From the IMG/VR virus record IMGVR_UViG_3300024262_000271, positions 1 to 22,599 of that record: a stretch of DNA of 22,599 nucleotides; one strand, 5' to 3'. The number at the start of each line of letters is the position of its first letter. Positions within the stretch are counted from its first letter, which is position 1. Positions 1,634 through 22,599 of this stretch are shown here, piece after piece. The translations under genes were made by a program, and so were the position numbers. The stretch comes from a virus. The notes beneath the pieces are model-generated. The model was not told the DNA's origin and did no database searches. It saw only the letters and a program-made list of their open reading frames with translations.

Positions 1634-1647
1634 GGTAAATATTTATA
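1634..1647 (+). promoter_or_regulatory. late promoter fused to the start codon of the homing endonuclease
   Basis: GGTAAATATTTATATG: TAAATA occupies 1636-1641 and the ATG begins at 1647, exactly six bases after the last A of the box. By the T4 late-promoter rule, transcription would start on the A of the ATG, giving a leaderless mRNA. No Shine-Dalgarno sequence is visible upstream. The core TAAATATTTATA also reads TATAAATA on the minus strand (1647-1640). Confidence 0.6.
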
Positions 1648-3305
1648 TGAAAGAAAAAATACAAGAAATAATAAAGAATATTGAATCAAGAAATTGGCGT
1701 AGAACCACAAAAGAAATAGAGAAAATTTATGACAATGTTATTACAATAACAAAATTTCTTCCATCTAATAGCAAACTAAATGAACGATTTTATTGTATTT
1801 TAAATGATATAACATCTCAACAACTTTGTAATACATGCCATAATAAACCAGTAAAATATACCAACGGTTTAAATGGTTATAGACAATGTTGTGGTTATAA
1901 ATGTTCATCAAATAATAAAGATATTAAAGAAAAAACAAAACAAACAAATTTAAGCAAATATGGTAAGCATCCACAACAGGTAAAAGAAATCAGGAATAAA
2001 TCTAAACAAACATGCCTGGAAAAATACGGAACAGAATTCGCTACACAATCAAAGGAATTCAAACAAAAAAGAAAAGAAACATGTTTAGAAAAATATGGTG
2101 TTGAAGAATTTGCTCAATCTAAAGAGTTTAAAAATCAAATACCAAGTATTGTTAAAAAATATAAAGAAACTTGTTTAAAAAAATATGGTGTTGATAACCC
2201 ACAAAAAAATAAACAACTAAAAGAAAAATGGAAAAAATCAAGATTAAACAATTTTTATAATAAAGTCAAAATGCAAACAACTTCAAGTTATACAACCATG
2301 TTTAATATCATATCATATAATGGGGTTAAACATGAGTATCAATGGCAATGCAAGCAATGTAATAATACATTCATATCAAGTTTAAAAGATGGGTCGAGGC
2401 CAATATGCCCCATATGTTTTCCGTCAGTAACATCTACACCACAAGAAGAGATATATCAATATGTTAATTCTTTTTACAAAAAAGAAATTATTAAAAAGAA
2501 TACAAGAACAATATTAGATAATAATTTAGAGTTAGATATTTATATTCCCCATAAAAAAATTGCTATTGAATTAAATGGTAATTATTGGCATGCTGAATTA
2601 GCTGGTAATAAAGATAGAAATTATCATTTAGAAAAAACCCAATTATGTGAAAAACAAAATATTCAGTTAATTCACATATTTGAAGATGAATGGGGTTTTA
2701 AACAACAAATTGTTAAAAATAGATTAAAGAATATTTTAGGAATTTCAAAATATAAAATACAAGCAAGAAAATGTATAATAAAAGAAATAGATGTTAAATT
2801 AAAAAATAAGTTCCTTAATAAATATCACATACAAGGTGAAGATAAATCAAAAATTAAATTAGGTTGTTTTTATAAAGATAGGCTAGTTGCTGTAATGACT
2901 TTTGGTAAAAGAAAAATTACTGGGGCTGATAATATGGAATGGGAACTTATTAGATATTGTACTATAGCTAATTTTAATTGCATTGGAACAGCTGGAAAGT
3001 TATTAAAACATTTCGAGAGAAATTATAACCCAAAACAAATTACTACTTATGCTGATAAAAGATGGTCACAAGGTAATATGTACTACAAATTAGAGTTTAA
3101 ATTAAGTCATATTAGTAAACCTAATTATTGGTACATGAATAAAAACTATTTAAAAAGACATCATAGAGTTGCTTTTCAGAAACACAAACTCAAAGATAAG
3201 TTAGATAAATTTGATCCTAAATTATCTGAATGGGAAAATATGCAAGTTAATGGTTATGATAGAATTTGGGATTGTGGAAATATGGTGTTTAAGAAATTAT
3301 ATTAA
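1647..3305 (+). CDS. homing endonuclease, PD-(D/E)XK/Vsr-like, with KYG repeats and zinc motifs
   Basis: A 552-residue protein antisense to the flanking structural genes. An N-terminal zinc-finger-like part has CxxC near residue 61 and a second Cys cluster near 81-86. Four repeats of the form T-C-L-E-K-Y-G then follow, with KYG near 104, 126, 149 and 179. This type of array occurs in phage endonucleases and probably contacts DNA. Another CxxC pair is near 235 and 254. The likely nuclease core is 'LELDIYIP' (D297) and 'IAIELNGNYWH' (E308), followed by 'QLIHIFEDEW'. The C-terminal 200 residues are conserved in such phage proteins but unassigned. It probably cuts phage lacking the insertion and spreads by repair. 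The ATG at 1647 is preferred over an upstream ATG at 1626 because the late-promoter motif overlaps the 1626-1647 segment. The gene is very AT-rich, which fits mobility. Confidence 0.8.
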   Translation: MKEKIQEIIKNIESRNWRRTTKEIEKIYDNVITITKFLPSNSKLNERFYCILNDITSQQLCNTCHNKPVKYTNGLNGYRQCCGYKCSSNNKDIKEKTKQTNLSKYGKHPQQVKEIRNKSKQTCLEKYGTEFATQSKEFKQKRKETCLEKYGVEEFAQSKEFKNQIPSIVKKYKETCLKKYGVDNPQKNKQLKEKWKKSRLNNFYNKVKMQTTSSYTTMFNIISYNGVKHEYQWQCKQCNNTFISSLKDGSRPICPICFPSVTSTPQEEIYQYVNSFYKKEIIKKNTRTILDNNLELDIYIPHKKIAIELNGNYWHAELAGNKDRNYHLEKTQLCEKQNIQLIHIFEDEWGFKQQIVKNRLKNILGISKYKIQARKCIIKEIDVKLKNKFLNKYHIQGEDKSKIKLGCFYKDRLVAVMTFGKRKITGADNMEWELIRYCTIANFNCIGTAGKLLKHFERNYNPKQITTYADKRWSQGNMYYKLEFKLSHISKPNYWYMNKNYLKRHHRVAFQKHKLKDKLDKFDPKLSEWENMQVNGYDRIWDCGNMVFKKLY

Positions 3306-3402: not shown

Positions 3403-3948
3403 ATCAATACCACCAGATTTAAAAGCCGCGGCTTTATATATTTCATCAAATAGTCTATTTTCTTCTTCTGACAATTTAGAATCTAAATAATTTTTAAGTT
3501 CTTTTATTGCCTTGGGTCTTGCTCTTTTAGCATCTGCAAATATTTGTTTGTCTGCTGATCTTGGTTCACCTCTTTTTGTATAAAGTTCTGGACGTTGTTG
3601 TTTTAAAGCGCGTTCAGCAGGGGCGTTATTCAAATTATTAACTAATTGCATAAATTCTTGGTCGTTTTTTAATTTGTTAATAACAACATTAATTTCTTTT
3701 ATTTTTAGTTGACGTAATTTTTCAGCTTTCATGTCACCTAATTTTTCTGCCGCGTTAAAAGCTAATGTTCCAAGACCTTTTACTAATAAACTTTTTGCTC
3801 CTTGTAGAGCTTTAACACCAAAATAACCACCAATAACAGCTGCGGCACCAATACCAATCATAGCCCCAACACCAAAATCTTCATTAATTTTTACTTGGTT
3901 ATATGCTTCTTCTAAAAGTTGTTTATCATTTCTATAGTCATTTTTCAT
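3370..3948 (-). CDS. small protein with possible capsid-targeting N-terminus and Gly/Ala-rich membrane helix
   Basis: A 192-residue protein of unknown function. Its N-terminus, 'NDKQLLEEAYNQV', matches a motif shared by other proteins here and contains a possible prohead-protease site (L-E-E before A). Residues about 26-50 form a Gly/Ala-rich hydrophobic stretch (GAMIGIGAAAVIGGYFGVKA), probably a membrane or hydrophobic helix. The rest is charged and helical, with many Lys and Arg. It lies between sheath and tube, downstream of a terminator, so it needs its own promoter or read-through. A TAAATA box sits only two bases before its ATG, too close for the usual spacing. It could be an internal head protein released with the DNA; this is inference. 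Confidence 0.65.
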   Translation of the reverse strand: MKNDYRNDKQLLEEAYNQVKINEDFGVGAMIGIGAAAVIGGYFGVKALQGAKSLLVKGLGTLAFNAAEKLGDMKAEKLRQLKIKEINVVINKLKNDQEFMQLVNNLNNAPAERALKQQRPELYTKRGEPRSADKQIFADAKRARPKAIKELKNYLDSKLSEEENRLFDEIYKAAAFKSGGIDPDLGPGLEQF

Positions 3949-3962
3949 AATATTTAAAAATA

Positions 3963-3986
3963 GGTGGGTTAAATTAATAACCCACC
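3963..3986 (-). terminator. rho-independent terminator after the tail sheath gene
   Basis: A perfect 8-bp GC-containing stem (GGTGGGTT at 3963-3970, AACCCACC at 3979-3986) with an 8-base AT loop. On the minus strand it is followed by TATTTTT. It lies 13 bases after the sheath stop codon and would close the sheath transcript before the 192-residue gene. Confidence 0.8.
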
Positions 3987-3999
3987 CATTTAATTTCTT

Positions 4000-7366: not shown

Positions 7367-9066
7367 TATATGTTTCTCCATCCTTGTTGTTGTAACTCTA
7401 ATAAGTTATCATCACCATAAGCCTCTGGATTAATTCCAATAAATGATGGCAGTGGCGCATCCGGATCTTTTTGATACAACGGATCTAGTTTAAAATACTC
7501 GGGAGCAACCACATCAAACGGCTCTATCTTGAGAGGCATGCCTTGCTCGTCTAATGATACGACCTCATAATACTTTTGGGCTACCACAGGCTCCAGAGCA
7601 AATAAAGCCCAAATTAAAGAGTGAACTCTATCATCATAAATATAATCCCCTGCCTTCTTTTTCCAAGTACCATTTGGATATTTAACAAAGGTCTCCAATT
7701 CTTGAACTAAGGCTATATCATAAATCTCTACCACTCGTAAACTATTTAACCAATACCTCATATTCATAACACCTTTATACTTTGAGTTGGTATGTGAGTA
7801 AATTCCTAATCTATTATAATATTTTTGTTTCTGTGGGGTATAATCTACAATATTATTGTAATGATGAGTCTCTTTTAATGCATCAATTACTTGGCCACCA
7901 CAGTTATTTCTTTCAATAAGTAGATTTGGTTGACCCCATTGATGTCCCATTTTGTTTAATATAGTTGCGAAATGGAATGGATCAATTTCATTATCTGCAT
8001 ATGAAGCAACAAGTCTAATATTTGTTAAGTCAGTCAGATCGAGTACATTAGCAACAGAAGAGGCTTGTCCAATACCTTCACCCACATCAACACCTATTGC
8101 ATAAAGATGTTCTGCATCAGGCTCTTCCCAAATTTTATACTTACCATCTTCTTGTAAGAAATCTGGTTCTCTACATATTTCTCTAAAATGTGTTAACAAA
8201 TCACTATCAATAGCAGTCTGACCTGTCTCTAAGAACACGTTTCCGAATTCCTGATCAAAACTCTTACCTTCACCAGCCAAAGCTGCTAATAGTTCTTCTT
8301 TCCATTTAAGACCACGACCCGGTATCTCCCACCAGTCTACTCGTTCATGATGCCAATTCTTGAAATTTTTATCTCCACGTTCAGCCCCAGTATAAATCTT
8401 ATGGAACATATTACCAGCACCATTCGGAGTACTAACACAAAAGATCTTAGTACCTCTATGTGATGAAACAACAGGAACAACAGCGTTCCAAAACTCTTTC
8501 ATCATACCTTCAGGAATAAAGGCCATCTCATCAACGATTAGTACGTTAGCCGATTCGCCACGTGCTGCACTACCAGTCGTAGTTGAAATACCTATACTTG
8601 AATCATTTGTAAATATAACTTCTGTTTTACCCCATTGTTTAACACCAGGTTTTAACCATCCAGGTAATTGTTCATAAGCCATTCGCACCCTACGAAGAAT
8701 CATAATTGCTGTATCTTCTTTATTAGCAACAATAATTATACGCTTGTCATGTTGAAAGCATGCAGTCCACAATGCGTATATTGTCATAAGAGTTGTCTTA
8801 CCCATCTGTCTTGATGATAATAAAATAACAAATCTATTTTTAGCTAATGCCTTAAGAACTCTTTTTTGGGGTTTATATAACTCTATCTTAGTCTTACCAG
8901 TTGCTAACGTTGTAATGTAAAAATGGTTAATAGCGAAATGTTTAATATCTTTAGCACATTTCTTTATTTCCTTAACCATAGTTGGTGTATATTCAAATTC
9001 AGCTTTCCCTGTAGGCAAATTTGGGTCGCCCATATAAAACTGATTTTGGTCTACTTTCTTATTCAT
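7366..9066 (-). CDS. gp17: terminase large subunit, T4 gp17-like DNA packaging motor
   Basis: A 566-residue ATPase-nuclease that pumps phage DNA into the prohead and cuts the concatemer. The ATPase domain shows Walker A 'SRQMGKTT' (residues 85-92), Walker B 'VLIVDE' (175-180, catalytic Glu180) and the coupling motif 'STPNG' (212-216). The RNase H-fold nuclease domain shows Asp327 in 'GVDVGEG', Glu385 in 'LLIE' and the Asp478-Asp479 pair in 'YDDR'. All key residues are present and the length is near that of T4 gp17 (610), so it is intact. Its start lies 14 bases after a predicted transcription start. It overlaps the next gene by a TAATG junction. Confidence 0.96.
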   Translation of the reverse strand: MNKKVDQNQFYMGDPNLPTGKAEFEYTPTMVKEIKKCAKDIKHFAINHFYITTLATGKTKIELYKPQKRVLKALAKNRFVILLSSRQMGKTTLMTIYALWTACFQHDKRIIIVANKEDTAIMILRRVRMAYEQLPGWLKPGVKQWGKTEVIFTNDSSIGISTTTGSAARGESANVLIVDEMAFIPEGMMKEFWNAVVPVVSSHRGTKIFCVSTPNGAGNMFHKIYTGAERGDKNFKNWHHERVDWWEIPGRGLKWKEELLAALAGEGKSFDQEFGNVFLETGQTAIDSDLLTHFREICREPDFLQEDGKYKIWEEPDAEHLYAIGVDVGEGIGQASSVANVLDLTDLTNIRLVASYADNEIDPFHFATILNKMGHQWGQPNLLIERNNCGGQVIDALKETHHYNNIVDYTPQKQKYYNRLGIYSHTNSKYKGVMNMRYWLNSLRVVEIYDIALVQELETFVKYPNGTWKKKAGDYIYDDRVHSLIWALFALEPVVAQKYYEVVSLDEQGMPLKIEPFDVVAPEYFKLDPLYQKDPDAPLPSFIGINPEAYGDDNLLELQQQGWRNI

Positions 9067-9079
9067 AATAACTTCTTTC

Positions 9080-9091
9080 TTTAAATATTTA
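9080..9091 (-). promoter_or_regulatory. predicted late promoter of the terminase gene
   Basis: TAAATA on the minus strand at 9091-9086, inside the palindrome CTTAAATATTTAAG. The predicted start at 9080 gives a 14-base leader containing GAAAGAAG before the ATG at 9066. It faces a plus-strand promoter about 75 bases away, so 9067-9185 is a divergent control region. Confidence 0.5.
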
Positions 9092-9160: not shown

Positions 9161-9178
9161 GGTAAATATTTATAGGAG
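9161..9178 (+). promoter_or_regulatory. late promoter with start on the ribosome-binding site
   Basis: GGTAAATATTTATAGGAG: TAAATA at 9163-9168, and the predicted +1 at 9174 is the A of AGGAG (9174-9178). The ribosome-binding site would thus be the very 5' end of the mRNA. AGGAG is 7 bases from the ATG at 9186 and only 1 base from the ATG at 9180, which decides the start codon. The reverse strand reads TATAAATA at 9174-9167. Confidence 0.65.
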
Positions 9179-9185
9179 AATGATA

Positions 9186-9983
9186 ATGGCAAAAGACGAA
9201 TTAGCAGAAGCATATTCAAGTATCTATGTTGAAAAGAACAAAACAGTTCTTGAAGAGGCAGATACGAATAAAAAAATGACCGTGGGTAAACAAAAGTCCG
9301 GTGATGAATTGGAAGGTCCAACAAAGCAACTTGATGGTACCGGTCCTGATTCTGCTGACTTTGACAAAGCGGTTGAAGCTCCTAAGAGCATAAGCCCAGC
9401 TGGCAAAACAAGCAAAACAAGCAAGAAAAGCACAACGAAAGTTAATGAGGAGAGTACAGACATGTCAAGAAAAACATTCGAAGAACTTTACAATACAGTA
9501 ATGGTTTCTGAAGAAGACCTCGAAAGTGCAGAGTACAATGATGAAATGGGAGACTTTCCACCTTCTGGCGATGAAGGAATGGAAGGTGAAATGGGTGAGG
9601 AACGTGATGCACCGTCTATATTAGGCGAGATCAAGGACTTACTTAGCGAACTCATCAGCGTAATGGGTGGTGGAGAAGAGATGGATGTAGATGTCGATAT
9701 GGATATGGACCCAGCAGAAGAAGGTGGCTTCGGTGAAGCAACTTCTGAACCTGAACCAAGACCATTAACAACTACAGTATCACAGCTTCAATTACCTAGC
9801 CGTAAACTTGGAGGACCTGGAACAACGGTTGTCAAGAAGAAAGCTAGTGGAGCAGCCGCTACTAAAAAGCACAATGGTGAACTAGAAGCAGCACCTGCAG
9901 GATTCAAGCACGATAAGAGCAAGATGAAAGTAGATGGTTCTGGAGCAGCAGTTCAAGGCAACAATCAAAGCGCATTTGAATAA
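9186..9983 (+). CDS. acidic low-complexity phage protein with possible capsid-targeting N-terminus
   Basis: A 265-residue protein of unknown function. It starts 'MAKDELAEAYSS', with a possible prohead-protease site (L-A-E before A) and a second candidate at 'TVLEEA'. A Lys/Ser/Thr linker follows, then a very acidic Met/Gly/Asp/Glu region around residues 110-190 with a short hydrophobic helix 'ILGEIKDLLSELISVMGGG', then a basic Gly/Ala/Lys tail. The composition resembles head core or internal proteins of T4-like phages. The coding sequence is noticeably richer in G and C than its neighbours, which may reflect strong expression. It is monocistronic: own late promoter upstream, strong terminator downstream. 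A scaffold or internal head role is inference. Confidence 0.7.
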   Translation: MAKDELAEAYSSIYVEKNKTVLEEADTNKKMTVGKQKSGDELEGPTKQLDGTGPDSADFDKAVEAPKSISPAGKTSKTSKKSTTKVNEESTDMSRKTFEELYNTVMVSEEDLESAEYNDEMGDFPPSGDEGMEGEMGEERDAPSILGEIKDLLSELISVMGGGEEMDVDVDMDMDPAEEGGFGEATSEPEPRPLTTTVSQLQLPSRKLGGPGTTVVKKKASGAAATKKHNGELEAAPAGFKHDKSKMKVDGSGAAVQGNNQSAFE

Positions 9984-10002: not shown

Positions 10003-10036
10003 AAAAAAAGCATAGATTTTCATCTATGCTTTTTTT
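10003..10036 (+). terminator. rho-independent terminator after the acidic protein gene
   Basis: A perfect 15-bp inverted repeat (AAAAAAAGCATAGAT at 10003-10017 and its complement at 10022-10036) with loop TTTC, ending in a run of seven T. It lies 20 bases after the stop codon. The A-run and T-run are symmetrical, so it could act in both directions. Confidence 0.9.
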
Positions 10037-10057: not shown

Positions 10058-10071
10058 GTTAAATAATTACA
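10058..10071 (+). promoter_or_regulatory. late promoter fused to the start codon of the nucleotidyltransferase gene
   Basis: GGTTAAATAATTACATG: TAAATA at 10060-10065, and the ATG starts at 10071, six bases after the last A of the box. The predicted +1 is the A of the ATG, with no Shine-Dalgarno. It sits just after a strong terminator, so the downstream gene pair needs a promoter here. Confidence 0.6.
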
Positions 10072-11993
10072 TGAATGATAGATTTGATAATTATATGAAT
10101 GGAGTGCTTCACAGTGAATCGACCATTCTAGAAGATATCCAAACAACAACAATACCTAGAAATTCTTTAGATCCAGTAGTTTTTCAATATACAGCTGATG
10201 GACCACCTTCAATGCAAGGACAAATTGCAACACAAATATTAGGTGACCTACAAGGCTTAGATAGAATTACTGCTATTAGAGATTTTTATGTTACTGGGCC
10301 TATATTGGATTATAACTGGAATGAAAAATCACCTATAGATGTTAAAATATTTGTCGATCCTGAAAATATGGATGATATAACAACTGAGAATGTTTATACT
10401 TATATTAAACTTGTAAACGCAAGAATGGGTACGGGTACAACACATCCTATATTTTATTATGTTATACAAGCTACGGAAAATGATCCAGCTAAAGAAAAAG
10501 CGGCTTATGACCTAGCAAATGAAAGATGGTTAAAAGAACCAAAGCCAAAGTACATCGGTGAATCGATTATTGACTATGCTCATAAATCACTTGACCCTAA
10601 ACTTTGGGACCTTTCAAAAGATCCAATATCCCTTAGACCTGATGTAAAGGATGAGATAATAAAACATCTTAAGGATTACTTTGGTAATAAATTTTCAAAG
10701 TATGTTGACGAGCTTCATATTACAGGTTCTATTGGAACTCAGCAATGGAAAAGTGATACCGATATAGATATTCATATTGTTCCAAAAAATATAAAAGCTA
10801 ATATGGCAGAGTATGAAGAGGCCAGAAGTAAGATCAAACATGACTTTGATAATAAAGGTATTACAATAGCAGGGCATCCATATGAGGTTTATTTACAATT
10901 AGATCCTGAGCAAGAAAAACGCGGCGACTCTAGTTATAGTGTTCTTGACGACAAATGGATTAAAATGCCTTTCTCGCTTTCAGATGATTTTGACCCTGAT
11001 GTAGAATTCGCTTATCTTAAAAAAGATCTAAGTGGAATATTTAAATCTATGGATTCAGCACTTGGTGAACTTCGTAGAGACTTAGTTGACTATGATATTA
11101 TTGATGACTATGTAGGACATCTTGAACCTGCTGAAAAGACATTCCTTAAAGATAAGCTTAAAGTTAAGTTACAAGAGATTGAAGATGATATGGCTAAGCT
11201 TATTAAGTATAAGACAAAATATCATGGCGCTAGAAAATCAGGTTACGGTCCAGAAGATCAAGAGAACGCTTGGAAAGAAGTTATTAAATCTAAAAGTTGG
11301 GCGCCTGGTAATGTTATGTGGAAGATGTTAGATCGTTATAAGTACGTTACATTAACCTTAGCTTTACAAAAGGTAATGAGAGAAGATGAAAATAAGAAAA
11401 TTGATCCTTCTGACATTAAAGATATTAAGAAAGTATTTAATTTTAAAGAGCATCACCAAATTCAAGAAAGAGCTCCAAGAGTTCATAGAAATTCTAAAAG
11501 AAAAAATAGGGGCAAGCCAACTGAGCCCTTTAAACCAACTGTTGGATCTATAGCTCAAGCTAAAGGTAAGAATAGATGGAAAGATCCATTAGCCAAACAT
11601 AGTATGGTAGCAGCTCGCGGAACAAACAGACAGTCTATGGATCAAGTCTCTCAATCAGATAGACTCGATAAGTTTTCAAGAAACTTACCATATGCAGAAA
11701 GAATTTTAGATATTGCAAAAGACGCACAAGCCGGCTCATGGAAATTAACTCAACGTCAGGTATTAGAAATAGCTGAGAAGTATGGAGTTAAAGTTCCAGA
11801 TATGGAAAATAGAATTAAGAAACTTGGTAAGACTGGAATTGTTCTTTTCAGACGATCACCTAAAAAGCTTTTATTAATGAAAACAGCAAGTACTGTAAGG
11901 GGGAATGTTTCTCCAGGTAAGAAATCAAAAGCTGGTCTTAAGAAAGCTTTCAAAATGCCAAGTTTTAAAACGAATTTTAGAAAGAGTAAATAA
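10071..11993 (+). CDS. nucleotidyltransferase-fold protein with two tandem domains
   Basis: A 640-residue protein. The second domain has the Pol-beta-superfamily signature 'TGSIGTQQWKSDTDIDIHIV' (residues 218-237), where Gly-Ser and the Asp-x-Asp (DTDID) would bind nucleotide and metal. A first, degenerate copy occurs at about 75-95: 'TGPILDYNWNEKSPIDVKIF', with the same spacing but GS and DxD lost. An acidic/helical middle and a strongly basic C-terminal part (from about residue 450) follow. The latter may bind nucleic acid. The substrate is unknown; related folds transfer nucleotides to RNA, proteins or small molecules. The start is at 10071, because an in-frame ATG at 10026 lies in the terminator stem. 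It overlaps the next gene by TAATG. Confidence 0.75.
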   Translation: MNDRFDNYMNGVLHSESTILEDIQTTTIPRNSLDPVVFQYTADGPPSMQGQIATQILGDLQGLDRITAIRDFYVTGPILDYNWNEKSPIDVKIFVDPENMDDITTENVYTYIKLVNARMGTGTTHPIFYYVIQATENDPAKEKAAYDLANERWLKEPKPKYIGESIIDYAHKSLDPKLWDLSKDPISLRPDVKDEIIKHLKDYFGNKFSKYVDELHITGSIGTQQWKSDTDIDIHIVPKNIKANMAEYEEARSKIKHDFDNKGITIAGHPYEVYLQLDPEQEKRGDSSYSVLDDKWIKMPFSLSDDFDPDVEFAYLKKDLSGIFKSMDSALGELRRDLVDYDIIDDYVGHLEPAEKTFLKDKLKVKLQEIEDDMAKLIKYKTKYHGARKSGYGPEDQENAWKEVIKSKSWAPGNVMWKMLDRYKYVTLTLALQKVMREDENKKIDPSDIKDIKKVFNFKEHHQIQERAPRVHRNSKRKNRGKPTEPFKPTVGSIAQAKGKNRWKDPLAKHSMVAARGTNRQSMDQVSQSDRLDKFSRNLPYAERILDIAKDAQAGSWKLTQRQVLEIAEKYGVKVPDMENRIKKLGKTGIVLFRRSPKKLLLMKTASTVRGNVSPGKKSKAGLKKAFKMPSFKTNFRKSK

Positions 11994-12835
11994 TGGCAAG
12001 ATGTGGAAGAAATCCAAAAGATAATTGGGAATCAATAAGATACCTAAATAAATCAGAAGCTAGTAATGAACAAGCTATCTTTGCTTCGTACTGGGAAGAA
12101 TTAACCAACCTATATGGAGTTAGAGTTGAATATTATCTTTATAACTATTCTTTAACAGGTCATGATTACCTTTACGGAGAAGAAACAACAGCATCATATT
12201 CTGGTCCATTTAACATGAACGTATTAATTGATATTCCAGATGAAGCTATTCTATTATCTAAATTTGGTTTGCAAACAGAATCTGATTTTACTGCTATCAT
12301 TCCTATTGTAACTTTCCAAGATGTATTTGGAGTAGGGGCAGAACCTAAATCACAAGACGTTGTTAGGTTAATTGAATCTGGTTGGTCTACAGATGAGTTA
12401 CCCCCATCGGGTGGGGAAGTATTAAGTGAGTTATGCACAATGACTAGTCCTATCTCTCCAGCTACTTTATTCTATACAGTCTCTGATAAGGATTGGGTTC
12501 GTTGTCCTAGGCTTTATGAAATCACTGAAAGAAATTGGCAAGACAATTCGATGGGTGTTAATACCTTACAAGGTCATTATGTTTGGATCATAAGAGGTAA
12601 AAGATTTGATTATAGTTACCAACCAGGCCTTACACCAGAATGTAAAGAAGGTGTTGTATCTGATGAAACAACTGATGTTGGAATTCTTTCGGGTGGAACA
12701 CAAGACCCATCATTACAAGATCCACAACCTGAGAAACCTTATTCAGATAACACTACAGAAGATAGTGATGAAAATATTTGGGATTATGATGTAGGTGATG
12801 AGACTAGAGATGATGATGTATACGGCGAGTATTAA
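11993..12835 (+). CDS. possible neck/head-completion protein, gp14-like pattern
   Basis: A 280-residue protein coupled to the preceding gene by TAATG. The order of features 'YWEELTNLYGVRVEYYLYNY' (about residues 31-50), 'LYGEETTASYSGPFNMNVLI' (about 58-77), then 'LSKFGLQTESDFTAIIPIVT' resembles the T4 gp14 neck protein family: 'Y-G-V-x-V' near the N-terminus, a skewed edge strand and an 'FG...D/E-x-T' strand. The C-terminal 60 residues are acidic and low-complexity. Gp14 joins head to tail after packaging, and neck genes lie near the terminase in T4-like genomes, which agrees with the location. The similarity is recalled by eye and could be wrong. Confidence 0.5.
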   Translation: MARCGRNPKDNWESIRYLNKSEASNEQAIFASYWEELTNLYGVRVEYYLYNYSLTGHDYLYGEETTASYSGPFNMNVLIDIPDEAILLSKFGLQTESDFTAIIPIVTFQDVFGVGAEPKSQDVVRLIESGWSTDELPPSGGEVLSELCTMTSPISPATLFYTVSDKDWVRCPRLYEITERNWQDNSMGVNTLQGHYVWIIRGKRFDYSYQPGLTPECKEGVVSDETTDVGILSGGTQDPSLQDPQPEKPYSDNTTEDSDENIWDYDVGDETRDDDVYGEY

Positions 12836-13146
12836 AGCAGTTTAATAAAAGCATCTTCTTTTGTTATTTCTTTATATAACGGACCGGGGCCATTACCATC
12901 ATATTTTTCATTCTTCCAATTATCAAAATTGTAATAATTCTTTTTCTGTGTTAAAGCCCATTTATCATTACTTGGCACATTACTACCAACAAACTTCCAA
13001 CCCAACGTGGTAGATTTATAAATTCTCCAATAAACAATATTGCGGCTGGTTGTAATAAAATATGGGTTCCCATAATCATAATCAGGTGTTTGATCTATTA
13101 AAAGATATGTTGTTTTTTTAACCGAAGATGTATCTAGTTTTGCCAT
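12832..13146 (-). CDS. solitary member of the KEEAFIEML-tail small protein family
   Basis: A 104-residue protein of unknown function. It ends 'PLYKEITKEDAFIKLL', the same tail as the eleven-gene array at 20194-22599, about 7 kb away. 'PLYKEITKE' matches the member at 22019-22261 best, and the aromatic middle ('YWRIYKSTTLGWKFVGS') has the same style. It is the longest complete member and the most divergent in its tail. It starts inside the end of the upstream 48-residue gene (29-base overlap), and its stop overlaps the stop of the convergent plus-strand gene. A duplication moved between loci, or an old remnant array, would explain it. Confidence 0.75.
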   Translation of the reverse strand: MAKLDTSSVKKTTYLLIDQTPDYDYGNPYFITTSRNIVYWRIYKSTTLGWKFVGSNVPSNDKWALTQKKNYYNFDNWKNEKYDGNGPGPLYKEITKEDAFIKLL

Positions 13147-16477: not shown

Positions 16478-16791
16478 GTTTGTTCTCCTTCATCCGATGT
16501 ACCTGGTGTTGCTGTAAAAAACACTTTAAGTGCTTCTACAATGGCAGGAGTTAATTTGATAGATAGAACATCCATTCCTATATTAACACCACCATCTTCG
16601 TCTTCAGAAATATTTATTTGCTCTGTCGCAGGAGTCGATCCAAATTCACCAACATTTGAGTCAGTATCTTGTTGGATTCCACATCCACAACCTTCACCTG
16701 GATGTCCACCTTGTGGTTGATCACCTGCAAGGGCAGTTTTAATCATATCACCGACATCCATTTCACATATTTGTTTATATTTACTTTTCAT
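16465..16791 (-). CDS. hypothetical acidic protein
   Basis: A 108-residue acidic protein of unknown function. It has a Gly/Cys-rich stretch near residues 28-40 ('GGHPGEGCGCGIQQ'), a polar middle and a C-terminal hydrophobic helix ('IKLTPAIVEALKVFFTATPG'). Two nearby cysteines could bind metal, but no full motif is present. A late box at 16815-16810 lies just upstream and predicts a start on AGAGGA, giving a leader of about 13 bases. Confidence 0.65.
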   Translation of the reverse strand: MKSKYKQICEMDVGDMIKTALAGDQPQGGHPGEGCGCGIQQDTDSNVGEFGSTPATEQINISEDEDGGVNIGMDVLSIKLTPAIVEALKVFFTATPGTSDEGEQTCQN

Positions 16792-16803: not shown

Positions 16804-16815
16804 TGAAATTATTTA
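16804..16815 (-). promoter_or_regulatory. predicted late promoter before the 16791 gene
   Basis: TAAATA on the minus strand at 16815-16810, at the very end of the RNase H gene. The predicted +1 at 16804 is the first A of AGAGGA, the ribosome-binding site of the gene at 16791. It could let the genes downstream of RNase H be expressed late. Confidence 0.45.
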
Positions 16816-17720: not shown

Positions 17721-18045
17721 TATATTTTTCCTCTTCGTTTTTATTTTTTAAATTCTCTCTATGCTCATGTTCTTTAAGACATGTTTCATAGACATCTTTA
17801 GGAAGTATCTGAACCAAATCTAGAATTTTCTTTTCTATTCCTTCCCTGACATCCTCTTCTCTTATATATAATAACGTCATTTCTGGGAAAGTTAAAGCTT
17901 TAAATTGGCCACCATCGGGTATTTCATTTACAAATACAAAGAACTTACCAACATGGTCCCCTGCTGTGCACGCGTATAATGCTCTTTGGATTGGTTTATA
18001 CCGTTTTTCTTTTATCTTTTCTGATAAATATTTAAAAGGATTCAT
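17665..18045 (-). CDS. hypothetical protein upstream of RNase H
   Basis: A 126-residue protein of unknown function. The middle looks beta-rich ('GDHVGKFFVFVNEIPDGGQF', then 'TFPEMTLLYIREEDV') and the C-terminal third is a charged helix. The ATG at 18045 is preferred to an in-frame ATG at 18057; both lack a good ribosome-binding site. The 3' end overlaps RNase H by 56 bases, which suggests coupling. In T4 the genes before rnh are dsbA and 33, but I see no clear similarity. Its first codons carry the promoter of the divergent 18050 gene. Confidence 0.65.
   Translation of the reverse strand: MNPFKYLSEKIKEKRYKPIQRALYACTAGDHVGKFFVFVNEIPDGGQFKALTFPEMTLLYIREEDVREGIEKKILDLVQILPKDVYETCLKEHEHRENLKNKNEEEKYNELNNRWEQLAPQSPLDK
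18023..18040 (+). promoter_or_regulatory. predicted late promoter inside the divergent gene's first codons
   Basis: GATAAATATTTAAAAGGA: TAAATA at 18025-18030. The predicted +1 at 18036 begins the AAGGA ribosome-binding site, 9 bases before the ATG at 18050. The box is embedded in codons 6-8 of the minus-strand gene that starts at 18045, so late plus-strand transcription would run against that gene's promoter region. Confidence 0.55.
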
Positions 18046-18049
18046 AATT

Positions 18050-18256
18050 ATGTCCATTGATTTAAATTTAGCTTTACAAGCATTAGATAACGCAGGCGAA
18101 ACTATTGTCATAAAACCAAATGGTAAAAATTACCGTAAGAAATTTAAAGACGGAAGGTATCGTTATACTAAACTAGGAAAGCTTATTTCAGCTAGTGCTT
18201 CTAATAAGAACGGTTTTAACATATCTAATGTTAAACCTAAGAATCCTAAGAAATAA
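18050..18256 (+). CDS. hypothetical basic small protein
   Basis: A 68-residue, Lys-rich protein of unknown function with an N-terminal amphipathic part ('LNLALQALDNAGETIVIKPN') and a basic tail ending 'NPKK'. It could bind nucleic acid. AAGGA and a late box position the start at 18050; upstream in-frame codons overlap the divergent gene. It is a lone plus-strand gene between minus-strand blocks. Confidence 0.7.
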   Translation: MSIDLNLALQALDNAGETIVIKPNGKNYRKKFKDGRYRYTKLGKLISASASNKNGFNISNVKPKNPKK

Positions 18257-19522: not shown

Positions 19523-19760
19523 AATCTTGCATTAAACGTTCGCTTATCCAATTGTATGGATCGCCTGTTCTCGCTTTAGCAGTACCATATGGCATTTCAC
19601 CCGCGTTGATATAGTAATTAAAAGCAATTTCATAAGCTTCATCTGAGAGTTCCCTATCTGGGTTCATAACAAATTCTTGTATTGCTGGATGGTTAAACAT
19701 TTTCTGTATCGCAACGTTTCCGTATGCTTCCATTAGCAATTCTGTGTCTTTATCTTTCAT
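19485..19760 (-). CDS. small protein with possible capsid-targeting N-terminus
   Basis: A 91-residue protein of unknown function. It starts 'MKDKDTELLMEAYGNV', with an L-M-E/A site like those of the genes at 3948, 9186 and 19909. The rest is helical ('SDEAYEIAFNYYINAGEMPY'). AAGGAG lies 7 bases upstream of the ATG, with a perfect TATAAATA just before it. If cleaved, its N-terminus could deliver the protein, or a fusion with the downstream gene, into the prohead. Confidence 0.75.
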   Translation of the reverse strand: MKDKDTELLMEAYGNVAIQKMFNHPAIQEFVMNPDRELSDEAYEIAFNYYINAGEMPYGTAKARTGDPYNWISERLMQDFESYTRNRPLEQ

Positions 19761-19771
19761 ATCATTCTCCT

Positions 19772-19785
19772 TTAAATTATTTATA
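19772..19785 (-). promoter_or_regulatory. T4-type late promoter of the 19760 gene
   Basis: A perfect TATAAATA on the minus strand (19785-19778). The predicted +1 at 19772 is the first A of AAGGAG, which is the ribosome-binding site of the gene at 19760. It faces the 19896-19909 promoter in a 148-base divergent gap that otherwise shows only AT-rich sequence. Confidence 0.75.
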
Positions 19786-19895: not shown

Positions 19896-19909
19896 GATAA
19901 ATACTTATA
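19896..19909 (+). promoter_or_regulatory. late promoter fused to the start codon of the 19909 gene
   Basis: GGATAAATACTTATATG: TAAATA at 19898-19903, and the ATG starts at 19909, six bases after the last A of the box. The predicted +1 is the A of the ATG. No Shine-Dalgarno is present. Confidence 0.6.
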
Positions 19910-20199
19910 TGAAAAGTAAAAAGAACGAATTATTAAATGAATCGAGCTTTAATATATTACACAATACACAGGATATTTCAAAAGCAATCCTTGATGCAGA
20001 ACAAAATCTAAAAGAACCTAAACAACCAAATACTTTATGCAGAGCTAAAAATCTATTAGTTCACATTGAAAGTATGTTAAATCAAACGTGGTTAGTTCCA
20101 AATGAAAACGTTGCAGAACATTCAAACCCTGCATATGCGAACCTAAAACTTCAGATCAAAGATATGATTAAAAATATTGATGAATCTGTTGATTTATAA
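19909..20199 (+). CDS. small protein with possible prohead-protease site at N-terminus
   Basis: A 96-residue helical protein of unknown function. It starts 'MKSKKNELLNESSF', with L-N-E before S in the same position as in the other motif carriers. The central part 'LCRAKNLLVHIESMLNQTW' is amphipathic. The mRNA is predicted to be leaderless. Its stop codon overlaps the stop of the convergent array gene (TTATAA), so transcripts from both strands meet here with no visible terminator. Confidence 0.7.
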   Translation: MKSKKNELLNESSFNILHNTQDISKAILDAEQNLKEPKQPNTLCRAKNLLVHIESMLNQTWLVPNENVAEHSNPAYANLKLQIKDMIKNIDESVDL

Positions 20200-20427
20200 T
20201 ATTTCTATAAAAGCTTCCTCTTTAGTTATCTCTTCATTCCAGACTCTATCATTAGTCTTTTTATCTATCCAAACAAATTTTGAATTAAAAGAACTATTCC
20301 AATGACCAGATGTTCTAATGTACTGCATATAAGTACCATCTTCAAATACTTTATAGACAGTCGTTGGAGCTAAAATTTTAGTTCCACTGATCATCATATT
20401 ATATTGTATTGCATATTTAAATTTCAT
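20194..20427 (-). CDS. array member 1 (3'-most), KEEAFIEML-tail family
   Basis: 77 residues. N-terminus 'MKFKYAIQYNMM', a middle with 'RTSGHWNSSFNSKFVWIDKK', tail 'EITKEEAFIEIL'. It is the last gene of the chain; no array gene follows, yet its tail is intact, so the tail is kept for protein reasons and not only for the next gene's ribosome-binding site. Its ATG overlaps the upstream stop as ATGA. The function is unknown. Confidence 0.75.
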   Translation of the reverse strand: MKFKYAIQYNMMISGTKILAPTTVYKVFEDGTYMQYIRTSGHWNSSFNSKFVWIDKKTNDRVWNEEITKEEAFIEIL

Positions 20428-20666
20428 AATATTTCTATAAACGCTTCCTCTCTACTTAGTTCTATAAAAAATTTTGATTCTTTAATAGGTACATGCCAAT
20501 TACACCATTCATTCGTTTTGTAGTTGAGGTACTGCCAACGTTCAAATGGTTTACCAGTTCTAGAATCAAGTGACCTAGCAATTTCTTTTCTCCAAATCCA
20601 GGTATGGTTATCGTTATATGGATCTGTTAGAGTGTCTTTATAATATGTCCAAAAATCTTTTTTCAT
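20424..20666 (-). CDS. array member 2, Trp-rich
   Basis: 80 residues. The most tryptophan-rich member: 'HTWIWRKE', 'FERWQYLNYKTNEWCNWHVP'. Tail 'LSREEAFIEIL', with Arg replacing the usual Lys. ATGA overlaps join it to both neighbours. It has no cysteine pair, signal peptide or membrane helix. Confidence 0.75.
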   Translation of the reverse strand: MKKDFWTYYKDTLTDPYNDNHTWIWRKEIARSLDSRTGKPFERWQYLNYKTNEWCNWHVPIKESKFFIELSREEAFIEIL

Positions 20667-20869
20667 AACATCTCCAAGAAAGCTTCTTCTTTAGATATTG
20701 GAATTAGGCCGTCAGTCCAACCATCTACTGGGTTATCTAACAATGACCAAACACCAACTAGTTTAGGATTGAAGTTACCTGAATGAAACCAGTATACATC
20801 ATCTACCAGTTTAACCACTACTCGAACATCTCTCTTTTTTGTTTTTAATATATCTATAAAATATTTCAT
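20663..20869 (-). CDS. array member 3
   Basis: 68 residues. 'MKYFIDILKTKKRDVRVVVK' forms a basic start, then 'VYWFHSGNF', 'GVWSLL' and 'GWTDGLIP', then tail 'ISKEEAFLEML' (Leu for Ile). The W-x-x-x spacing of short beta strands recalls the other members despite little direct identity. ATGA overlaps on both sides. Confidence 0.75.
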   Translation of the reverse strand: MKYFIDILKTKKRDVRVVVKLVDDVYWFHSGNFNPKLVGVWSLLDNPVDGWTDGLIPISKEEAFLEML

Positions 20870-21156
20870 AATATCTCTATAAAGGCTTCTTCTTTAGTGA
20901 TTCTTTTAAAATTTTCTTTAATTTGTTCTTTAACATAAGTACGATCGTTGGGCCTGATATAATTCATTTTCATATATCTTTGAGGTCCCCATAAAATATT
21001 CCAACCACGACTCTGGTCCTGATCAGTATTCCAACCCCAGAGATAATCTCTATCATCATGTTCATATGGTTCACTATTATTGGTTTTAACCTGCCTGTAA
21101 ACGATACCAGCTTTCCTATGAACATAATAATTATATTTTTCTTTTTTCATTCTCAT
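20866..21156 (-). CDS. array member 4, longest of the array
   Basis: 96 residues. It starts 'MRMKKEKYNYYVHRKAGIVY', is rich in Tyr, Arg and Trp ('YLWGWNTDQDQSRGWNILWG'), and has an extra basic stretch before the tail 'ITKEEAFIEIL'. A second ATG two codons in is an alternative start; the first overlaps the upstream stop as TAATG, which favours it. Confidence 0.75.
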   Translation of the reverse strand: MRMKKEKYNYYVHRKAGIVYRQVKTNNSEPYEHDDRDYLWGWNTDQDQSRGWNILWGPQRYMKMNYIRPNDRTYVKEQIKENFKRITKEEAFIEIL

Positions 21157-21380
21157 TACAACATCTCTATAAAGGCTTCTTCTTTAGATATTTCAACATA
21201 ATCACATTCTTCTAGTGGGTCCATATTGGTATCTGCCACATGAACCCATTTGGAAGGATCAGTCCCCCAACTATCATAAACACATTTCTCAAGACCATTT
21301 TTTTTGCGGCACCATATTACCCTATGACCTTTAGCTATACCAATATTAGGGTCGCTACTTTTCCATATAAAATATTTCAT
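21156..21380 (-). CDS. array member 5
   Basis: 74 residues. 'MKYFIWKSSDPNIGIAKGHR', then 'VIWCRKKNGLEKCVYDSWG', then tail 'ISKEEAFIEML'. Its core 'W-x-R-x-x-x-G-x-E-K-x-x-Y' also occurs in member 8 (21792-22019), which suggests these two are closer relatives. It is joined upstream by ATGA and downstream by TAATG. Confidence 0.75.
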   Translation of the reverse strand: MKYFIWKSSDPNIGIAKGHRVIWCRKKNGLEKCVYDSWGTDPSKWVHVADTNMDPLEECDYVEISKEEAFIEML

Positions 21381-21625
21381 AACATCTCTATAAACGCTTC
21401 CTCATGAGATATTTCTATCATTGTATGAGTAGACAATCCATAATAAATCCATTTCCATACACCCATCGAATCAGGTATCCAATAATCATAAAATTTTATG
21501 TTCTCTGACCATGGTCGTTCATGCCATGGCCCTTCGATGGCCTTTGCTGTTTTATCCCGAAGCTGAGAATCTCTAAATAATAAAGGTTCGTTATCATATA
21601 ATATTTTGTTTTTATAATATTTCAT
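21377..21625 (-). CDS. array member 6
   Basis: 82 residues. 'MKYYKNKILYDNEPLLFRDS', a charged middle, 'FYDYWIPDSMGVWKWIYYGL', then tail 'ISHEEAFIEML' with His in place of Lys. ATGA overlaps on both sides. The function is unknown. Confidence 0.75.
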   Translation of the reverse strand: MKYYKNKILYDNEPLLFRDSQLRDKTAKAIEGPWHERPWSENIKFYDYWIPDSMGVWKWIYYGLSTHTMIEISHEEAFIEML

Positions 21626-21795
21626 AATATTTCTATAAAGGCTTCTTCTTTCGTGATTTCAAATATCGTAGATCCAGCTGCCGGATAATGTCCATAATAT
21701 TGCCAGTGGTTATTAATCCATACATAAAAACTTTTATGAGGACCCTCATAAACCATCTTAAGCAACCTTCCATACTCCGTTTTATAATATTTCAT
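21622..21795 (-). CDS. array member 7, shortest
   Basis: 57 residues: 'MKYYKTEYGRLLKMVYEG', 'SFYVWINNHWQYYGHYP', tail 'ITKEEAFIEIL'. As the smallest complete member it shows the minimum: an aromatic N-terminus, one W-hairpin-like segment and the tail. ATGA overlaps on both sides confirm that it is a real gene in spite of its length. Confidence 0.75.
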   Translation of the reverse strand: MKYYKTEYGRLLKMVYEGPHKSFYVWINNHWQYYGHYPAAGSTIFEITKEEAFIEIL

Positions 21796-22019
21796 AACAT
21801 TTCTATAAAAGCTTCTTCTTTGCTTATTTCCACATACCCTTGTTCTTCAGTTATACGTCTGCCGTAGCGTTCTCCCCCAAGTGGGTCAACCCATTCATCA
21901 TCATCTGCCTTATTTCCACCGCCTCGAAAGTAGGTTCTATAAATTAACTTTTCCATTCCATCTTCTCTCATAGCCCATATAGCCACATCATCGTTTTGTT
22001 TATTAATAAAATATCTCAT
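21792..22019 (-). CDS. array member 8
   Basis: 75 residues. 'MRYFINKQNDDVAIWAMRED', 'GMEKLIYRTYFRGGG', an acidic turn, then tail 'ISKEEAFIEML'. Its core resembles member 5. It is joined by TAATG to the upstream gene and by ATGA to the downstream gene. Confidence 0.75.
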   Translation of the reverse strand: MRYFINKQNDDVAIWAMREDGMEKLIYRTYFRGGGNKADDDEWVDPLGGERYGRRITEEQGYVEISKEEAFIEML

Positions 22020-22261
22020 TATAATATCTCTATAAAAGCTTCTTCTTTAGTGATCTCTTTATACAGTGGCCAATGCTTATTTTTCATTAAAACTTCATCC
22101 CACAAAGGCCTGCCGCCAGGATATTCTTGTATGTCTTCCCATAAATTAAAACTAATATTATCATTAGACCCCCATATATCCCAAGTATTATCAGGATGAA
22201 CTCTCCATACATAAGTTACAGGACCATCAACATTCATTAATTTTCTACAATAATATTTCAT
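22019..22261 (-). CDS. array member 9
   Basis: 80 residues. 'MKYYCRKLMNVDGPVTYVWR', 'HPDNTWDIWGSNDN', then 'PLYKEITKEEAFIEIL'. The extended tail PLYKEITKE is shared with the solitary member at 12832-13146, making it the best candidate for that gene's closest relative. It overlaps by ATGA upstream and TAATG downstream. Confidence 0.75.
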   Translation of the reverse strand: MKYYCRKLMNVDGPVTYVWRVHPDNTWDIWGSNDNISFNLWEDIQEYPGGRPLWDEVLMKNKHWPLYKEITKEEAFIEIL

Positions 22262-22470
22262 AACATCTCTATAAAGGCCTCTTCTTTGCTCATCTGTATT
22301 ACATTTATATGATCGGGATATGTTGATGGTCCACCTTCACCTGGTCCAGTCCATTTACCACTAGCAAAATAAAACCATAAATTATCTTCACATTTCCAGA
22401 TGCAAGTCTCGCGGTCGCCATATGTTGCGCGGTCGCCATATGTTTCTTTATAATATAATACTTTACTCAT
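22258..22470 (-). CDS. array member 10, with internal duplication
   Basis: 70 residues. The N-terminal part contains a six-residue tandem duplication, TYGDRA then TYGDRE, from an 18-bp repeat. Then 'CIWKCEDNLWFYFASGKWTG' and tail 'MSKEEAFIEML'. It starts MSKVLYYKE in place of the usual MKYY. It is joined by TAATG to the upstream gene and by ATGA to the downstream gene. Confidence 0.75.
   Translation of the reverse strand: MSKVLYYKETYGDRATYGDRETCIWKCEDNLWFYFASGKWTGPGEGGPSTYPDHINVIQMSKEEAFIEML
22411..22444. repeat. 18-bp in-frame tandem duplication
   Basis: GCGGTCGCCATATGTT occurs at 22411-22426 and again at 22429-22444, period 18. It adds six codons to array member 10. The copies are identical over 16 bases, so the event looks recent. 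Confidence 0.85.
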
Positions 22471-22599
22471 TACAACATCTCTATAAAGGCTTCTTCTTTA
22501 GTGAGTTTTACTAATTTCTGATGACCCGACAGTTTACTTGGATGGGCAGCACCTCTCCACTCACCCTTACGATACCAAAACCATTTATTATCTTCCTCA
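22470..22599 (-). CDS. array member 11, N-terminus outside window
   Basis: The last 42 codons of a further member, reading leftward from the window edge: 'NKWFWYRKGEWRGAAHP', then tail 'LTKEEAFIEML'. The stop overlaps the next ATG as TAATG. The array therefore continues beyond the window, and its promoter is not seen. Confidence 0.75.
   Translation of the reverse strand, partial: EEDNKWFWYRKGEWRGAAHPSKLSGHQKLVKLTKEEAFIEML

Follow-up and report, generated by a model that had tools for sequence, protein, structure and literature searches.

Can a phage late promoter be placed so close to a gene that its transcript opens on the start codon itself? This question is raised by a 22.6-kb fragment of a T4-like phage (the window, that is, the whole stretch of 22,599 nucleotides analysed here), in which three TAAATA late-promoter boxes lie at one and the same short distance from the ATG of a long open reading frame. 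The fragment carries gp17, gp18 and gp19 genes whose products show only ~35% identity to the best of the HTVC008M, C48C1 and T4 references; gp55 and most late genes are absent from it. On the evidence assembled below, leaderless T4-type late mRNAs very likely occur occasionally in the window's clade and dominate in a sister group without Shine-Dalgarno (SD) sequences, although this reading is inferred from sequence alone and no 5' end has been measured.

Three probable late-promoter boxes close to start codons

With d defined as the spacing from the last A of TAAATA to the A of the ATG, all three sites are on the plus strand and have d=6. The first box (1636-1641) has its predicted +1 at A1647, the first base of a predicted leaderless gene of 552 codons (1647-3305) without an SD, whose identification as a homing endonuclease, already proposed in an earlier note made by reading the window alone, is firm (PHROG 3339, E 1.2e-132). 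The second (10060-10065, predicted +1 at A10071) precedes a predicted leaderless gene for a 640 aa protein (10071-11993); the label nucleotidyltransferase given to it earlier rests on weak, sub-threshold Pfam matches. The third (19898-19903, predicted +1 at A19909) precedes a small, predicted leaderless gene for 96 aa (19909-20199), which stands as an orphan without a family match. When viral contigs were searched with the 10071, 19909 and 1647 proteins, no close relatives were found.

The exact pattern TAAATANTTAYATG is present three times on the forward strand of the window, never on the reverse strand, and never in a reversed control. Counting only TAAATA..ATG combinations at d=6 that open a frame of at least 50 aa, the three observed compare with a mean of 0.024 in 2000 dinucleotide shuffles, none of which reached three. 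TAAATA itself is not enriched (51 copies vs 55 expected), and the special feature is the position of the box. Upstream of sites 1 and 3 lie divergent genes, and upstream of site 2 lies the intrinsic terminator of the preceding gene, a hairpin with a T-run (10003-10036, plus strand) ending 23 nt before the box and predicted to be strong (-15.5 kcal/mol, z -7.1); the same order of terminator and box is found in orthologues.

The earlier note had described all three boxes correctly as to position, but its motif requires trimming. The 'GG-N' that it placed before the box holds for sites 2 and 3 only, since site 1 reads gtggTAAATA with the GG abutting the box, and neither the GG nor the A after the ATG is conserved in relatives, so that the motif proper is (A)TAAATA-N5-ATG. 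Its claim that no SD is present holds strictly for sites 1 and 2. At site 3 an AGGA, lying upstream of the predicted +1, overlaps the upstream edge of the box and stops 11 nt short of the ATG; conceivably a longer transcript could use it, which counts against the leaderless reading at that site.

Two repeat features of these regions were also recorded. Close to sites 1 and 3, the gaps between divergent genes contain palindromes of the ATATTAATAT type (window 1598, 19788 and 19868). Further along, the minus strand at 20194-22599 carries small ORFs in tandem, ten of them complete (57-96 aa) and one cut off; most of them end in (S/T)KEEAFIE(I/M)L and mostly overlap the start of the next by 4 bases, and another copy with a similar end is found at 12832-13146 (minus strand).

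The spacing in related phages

Loci from related phages were gathered by protein similarity alone, blind to the motif: 80 by similarity to gp17 and 25 by similarity to gp19, with ten long contigs scanned whole. In 1.35 Mb of gp17 relatives, d=6 was met 261 times vs 0.9 in shuffles and d=7 146 times vs 1.35. The loci are partly redundant and overlap in ancestry, and these raw counts therefore overstate the number of independent events; removal of identical contexts leaves 318 sites in 101 protein families and 68 loci, and the family count is the safer figure. For hexamers of the same composition the highest count at d=6 is 38, vs 210 for TAAATA, and several of the peaks obtained with other hexamers come from the TAAATA sites themselves, counted in a shifted register, e.g. 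ATAAAT at d=7. Frames were opened at their first ATG, a method that lets in some false starts, and smaller peaks at d=9-12 are also seen. Even so, the excess of ATG at the exact spacing, the outcome by which the earlier note had proposed that its idea be judged, is large, and both the spacing and the excess are shown directly by these scans.

Within the window's own clade (419 kb, comprising the window, G008, G009, G010, L005 and others), genes use SD sequences, and the distribution is bimodal. At d=6-7 there are 36 sites (30 at d=6 and 6 at d=7), none with an SD, which at these sites was counted downstream of the predicted +1; d=8-14 holds 20 sites, and d=15-19 holds 50, of which 37 have an SD in the predicted leader. 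The existence of two discrete modes, one of them devoid of SD sequences, is likewise a plain result. In G010 (locus L157, 6456-6473) an 18-base palindrome, CATATAAATATTTATATG, makes up a divergent pair of leaderless-type promoters with a common core.

Outside these groups the mode is restricted. No d=6 mode exists in T4, KVP40, Syn9 or S-PM2, which have a single mode near d=25-29, and no d=6 peak was found in phiM9, XG4, AG-345-P14, DLP6, phiM12 or C48C1. Mosig and Melnitz, both close relatives of HTVC008M, have just one d=6 site each in 50 kb, and the mode is therefore not fixed in the HTVC008M group. A phage-encoded ribosomal protein S21 was considered as a companion of leaderless genes and rejected, as it was found only in HTVC008M and Mosig.

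Predicted placement of the transcription start

The T4 late-promoter box is numbered -13 to -6 (PMC2988020), which puts +1 six bases after the last base of the box. That the same holds in these phages is an inference, but one that several features of the sequence support. In promoters with leaders, the position six bases past the box is A in 29/38 cases in these phages and in 10/13 in T4. At sites with d=6 the base preceding the ATG is a pyrimidine in 197/210 (94%), and 42 GTG starts fall at d=6, as compared with a total of 5 at d=5, 7 and 8; TTG is met once at d=6. The ratio of ATG to GTG to TTG at d=6 is 90:19:1 in the SD-less contigs and 29:0:0 in the window's clade, GTG starts being confined to gp17 relatives and absent from that clade. 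A purine +1 at the first base of the codon would account for the preceding pyrimidine, the clustering of GTG and the scarcity of TTG.

A second promoter type leads to the same place. The SD-less relatives, contigs G001-G007, in which an SD excess is absent and A-rich bases precede gene starts, show a peak of TATAAT at d=7 (42 sites, vs 15 at d=6 and 17 at d=8), often with a TTGA-like -35 element. The -10 box of sigma70 promoters ends at -7, and TATAAT at d=7 would therefore also set +1 on the ATG. Since the TAAATA and TATAAT spacings each fit their own start geometry, a signal read by the ribosome is hard to invoke for both.

Two observations on these contigs stand apart. In G001 (e.g. loci L091-L093), a repeated GAACTCCgaTATAATAATA|ATG precedes many genes and appears to represent a separate promoter class, also starting on the ATG. 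The possibility that the SD-less contigs come from phages of Bacteroidota was considered and is not supported, because TAnnTTTG is unenriched whereas TATAAT is enriched.

Probable late-promoter identity of the boxes

The genes that carry the box point to a late promoter. In HTVC008M, the box is found at d=6 in 12/172 scanned annotated CDS, 7 of which are virion genes; stated by class, it precedes 7/33 virion vs 0/25 replication genes. The d=6 genes, taken at their annotated starts, include gp2, gp4, gp48, gp25, gp3 and the gene for the tape measure protein, and in six further virion genes the box lies at a distance of 8-40 bases, in most of them together with an SD. In G001-G007 together with the window, the box stands at d=6/7 for 10/40 virion vs 0/51 replication genes (p 1.3e-4). 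The link to virion genes is thus shown. Recognition by gp55 remains an inference; homologues of this late sigma factor are encoded in G002, G003, G004 and G006 (39-44% identity) and in G010 (40%), and gp55 is annotated in HTVC008M.

The composition around the box gives a less complete picture. The TAAATA core was fixed by the search; beyond it, an A precedes the box at 71% of d=6 sites, the T at -13 is unconserved, and the window sites read GG, GT or GA before TAAATA where the T4-like octamer would be TATAAATA. The nine bases before the box are flat in composition, and 84/295 sites at d=6/7 match TTGACA at -35 in at least 4 of 6 positions, a figure for which no background was computed.

Placement after terminators is also shown. 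The 10071 gene has a box at d=6 or 7 in 21 relatives, and in 22 listed members of its family a terminator lies directly before the box, so that the mRNA should start between the terminator and the ATG. Among all 317 sites, 45 match a strict terminator pattern, vs 2 in a control stretch. The N-termini in these families of box-bearing genes are alike from the first residues, which makes the ATG very likely the real start.

These features suggest a mechanism. The TAAATA box would be recognized by RNA polymerase in association with a gp55-type sigma factor of the phage, and the placement of the box would make transcription begin on the first base of the ATG. The mRNA leader would then be 0 nt, or 0-1 nt for the d=7 variants of relatives, and ribosomes would load at the 5'-terminal AUG without an SD, a step of translation that is itself only inferred. 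The window phage and its close relatives would combine leaderless late genes with ordinary SD-led late genes, while the SD-less sister group would use the leaderless layout at most gene-preceding boxes and an equivalent sigma70 layout at other genes. The central proposal of the earlier note, that T4-type late promoters start on the ATG and yield leaderless mRNAs, is in this sense supported.

Alternative explanations

The first rival holds that TAAATA-N5-ATG is a translation-initiation motif, either Kozak-like or an AU-rich site bound by S1, in an mRNA that starts further upstream. In its favor, genes in G001-G007 are without an SD excess and so need another start signal, and starts there are preceded by A-rich bases. 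However, the block is absent from replication genes of the same genomes (0/51 and 0/25), in other genes the same box stands 15-24 bases before the start with an intervening SD, in the 10071 family a terminator ends just before the box, and a different hexamer, TATAAT, peaks one base farther, matching its own start geometry. We regard this explanation as very unlikely.

A second rival accepts late promoters but has the RNA start a few bases earlier, giving near-leaderless mRNAs with leaders of ~2-6 nt. Start-point choice can indeed shift by a base or two, and the 146 sites at d=7 and the smaller peaks at d=9-12 exist. The sharp maximum at d=6, the pyrimidine before 94% of ATGs, and the presence of GTG but near absence of TTG at d=6 nevertheless leave it little room, and it too is judged quite improbable. 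Chance in AT-rich DNA, or common descent of a few intergenic regions, might be entertained because TAAATA is not itself enriched in the window, but is all but excluded by 0/2000 shuffles, by the spread over 101 protein families and by the lack of effect of hexamers of the same composition.

Relation to known systems

The leaderless late promoters proposed here resemble those of T4, which are served by gp55/gp33/gp45, in having a TA-rich box that ends at -6 (PMC2988020), one helical turn ahead of the predicted start, in serving virion genes, and in the presence of gp55 homologues in the relatives; T4 late promoters have no conserved -35 element, and the flat composition just before the box is at least compatible with the same here. 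They differ in that the ATG in T4 mostly lies 24-29 bases past the box with an SD between, whereas here a discrete mode has the ATG at the predicted +1, and in that the window sites (GGTAAATA, GTTAAATA and GATAAATA) do not keep the first two bases of the T4 octamer.

In mycobacteria, leaderless initiation has been found to require an ATG or GTG at +1, which is also sufficient for it (PMC4633059). The start codon at the 5' end and the lack of an SD are common to both systems, and the RTG rule fits the SD-less relatives, whose hosts may, by analogy, follow a mycobacteria-like rule. The mycobacterial mRNAs come from host-type promoters, in contrast to the phage late promoters and virion genes described here, and the window's clade uses ATG only. 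The cI mRNA of phage lambda is also leaderless, with its start codon at the 5' end, no SD and a host-type promoter.

Closer at hand, HTVC008M (Kyanoviridae), a cultured phage of SAR11 Pelagibacter, has d=6 boxes largely at virion genes. For the window endonuclease gene, the nearest parallel is I-TevI, in which a late promoter immediately before the homing endonuclease gene limits expression to late times; the I-TevI mRNA, however, has an SD leader that is hidden by an RNA hairpin in early transcripts (PMC2988022), whereas the window gene would be leaderless. The literature searched, which did not take in key cyanophage transcriptome papers, yielded no account of leaderless late genes in T4-like phages, HTVC008M included, and no mapped 5' ends for these phages.

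If the reading is correct, promoter and start codon are combined into one unit of 14 bases in a large, widespread and mostly uncultured group of aquatic T4-like phages, and leaderless translation would be a main route to virion proteins rather than a curiosity. It may also account for the failure of middle and late promoter prediction in pelagimyophages (PMC7029224). Promoter boxes could then serve directly to correct the annotation of start codons, orthologues that differ in having or lacking a leader would offer natural pairs for the study of how ribosomes choose between the two routes, and the start-codon pattern (AUG alone together with an SD, or RTG without one) would furnish a clue, readable from sequence alone, to the start mechanism of unknown hosts.

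Leadered boxes, apparent switching between modes and a probable internal start

The window also has leadered boxes, with TAAATA at 18-20 bases from the start and mostly an SD-like sequence between. The model leadered case is the gene starting at ATG 9186 (plus strand), whose box (9163-9168) has a predicted +1 at A9174, the first A of an AGGAG (9174-9178), and hence a 12-nt leader. Other boxes with leaders precede, on the minus strand, a tail gene starting at 910 (box 929-934, d=19, AAGG), the gp17 large terminase gene starting at 9066 (9086-9091, d=20, no clear SD), a gene starting at 16791 (16810-16815, d=19, SD GAGG) and one starting at 19760 (19778-19783, d=18, reading TATAAATA, AAGGAG) and, on the plus strand, a gene starting at 18050 (18025-18030, d=20, AAGG). 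The minus-strand gene at 3948 departs from the d=6 rule: here a hairpin is followed by TAAATA (3951-3956, region 3945-3990) only 3 bases before the ATG, an arrangement that the leaderless model does not explain.

Orthologues probably switch between the two modes, as inferred from the gene beside gp17. In many relatives this gene has a box at d=6/7, whereas the window has TAAATATTTAT-AGGAGAATGATA-ATG. The case for homology between the window protein and that family is built on gene position and on a profile comparison that reaches a probability of 92, with matches falling mostly around an internal segment.

The gp17-divergent gene also has a conserved internal in-frame start ~80-170 codons from its beginning. 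In the window (9447-9464, plus strand) an SD, GAGGAG (9447-9452), precedes ATG 9462, and most relatives have an internal TAAATA-N5-ATG instead. Of 34 internal pattern matches collected, some of them unrelated, 25 represent this conserved Met preceded in frame by TAAATA at d=6/7, a box that is missing at that spacing from L060 and L061. It is likely, though again only inferred, that a second, shorter protein is made from this gene.

A bolder reading joins these strands, and as a whole we consider it likely, with less assurance than the core proposal. The lineage would have largely dropped 5' leaders, placing both late promoters (TAAATA-N5-RTG) and sigma70-type promoters (TTGA-N17-TATAAT-N6-ATG) on the start codon; the internal in-frame late promoter beside gp17 would make a second leaderless mRNA for the shorter protein; and SD-using phages, the window's included, would switch single genes through gain or loss of a 9-14 nt leader.

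A further feature of some of these proteins is an N-terminus such as MKRTFEQFIYEA or MKHRFDTFFEAT, which we take to resemble the T4 capsid-targeting sequence. Such N-termini are present in the products of window genes 10071, 9186, 3948 and 19760 and of G010 genes 10140 and 167401. They are found in 9/33 leaderless genes vs 39/441 (p 0.003; p 0.017 for SD-less relatives), an enrichment that is modest, was noticed after the fact and is absent from HTVC008M. It is possible that some leaderless genes encode proteins packaged in the head. Finally, in the close relative L005 (4912-5428) the gp17 gene is split by ~500 bases between residues 175 and 176, which could reflect an intron or an endonuclease insertion.
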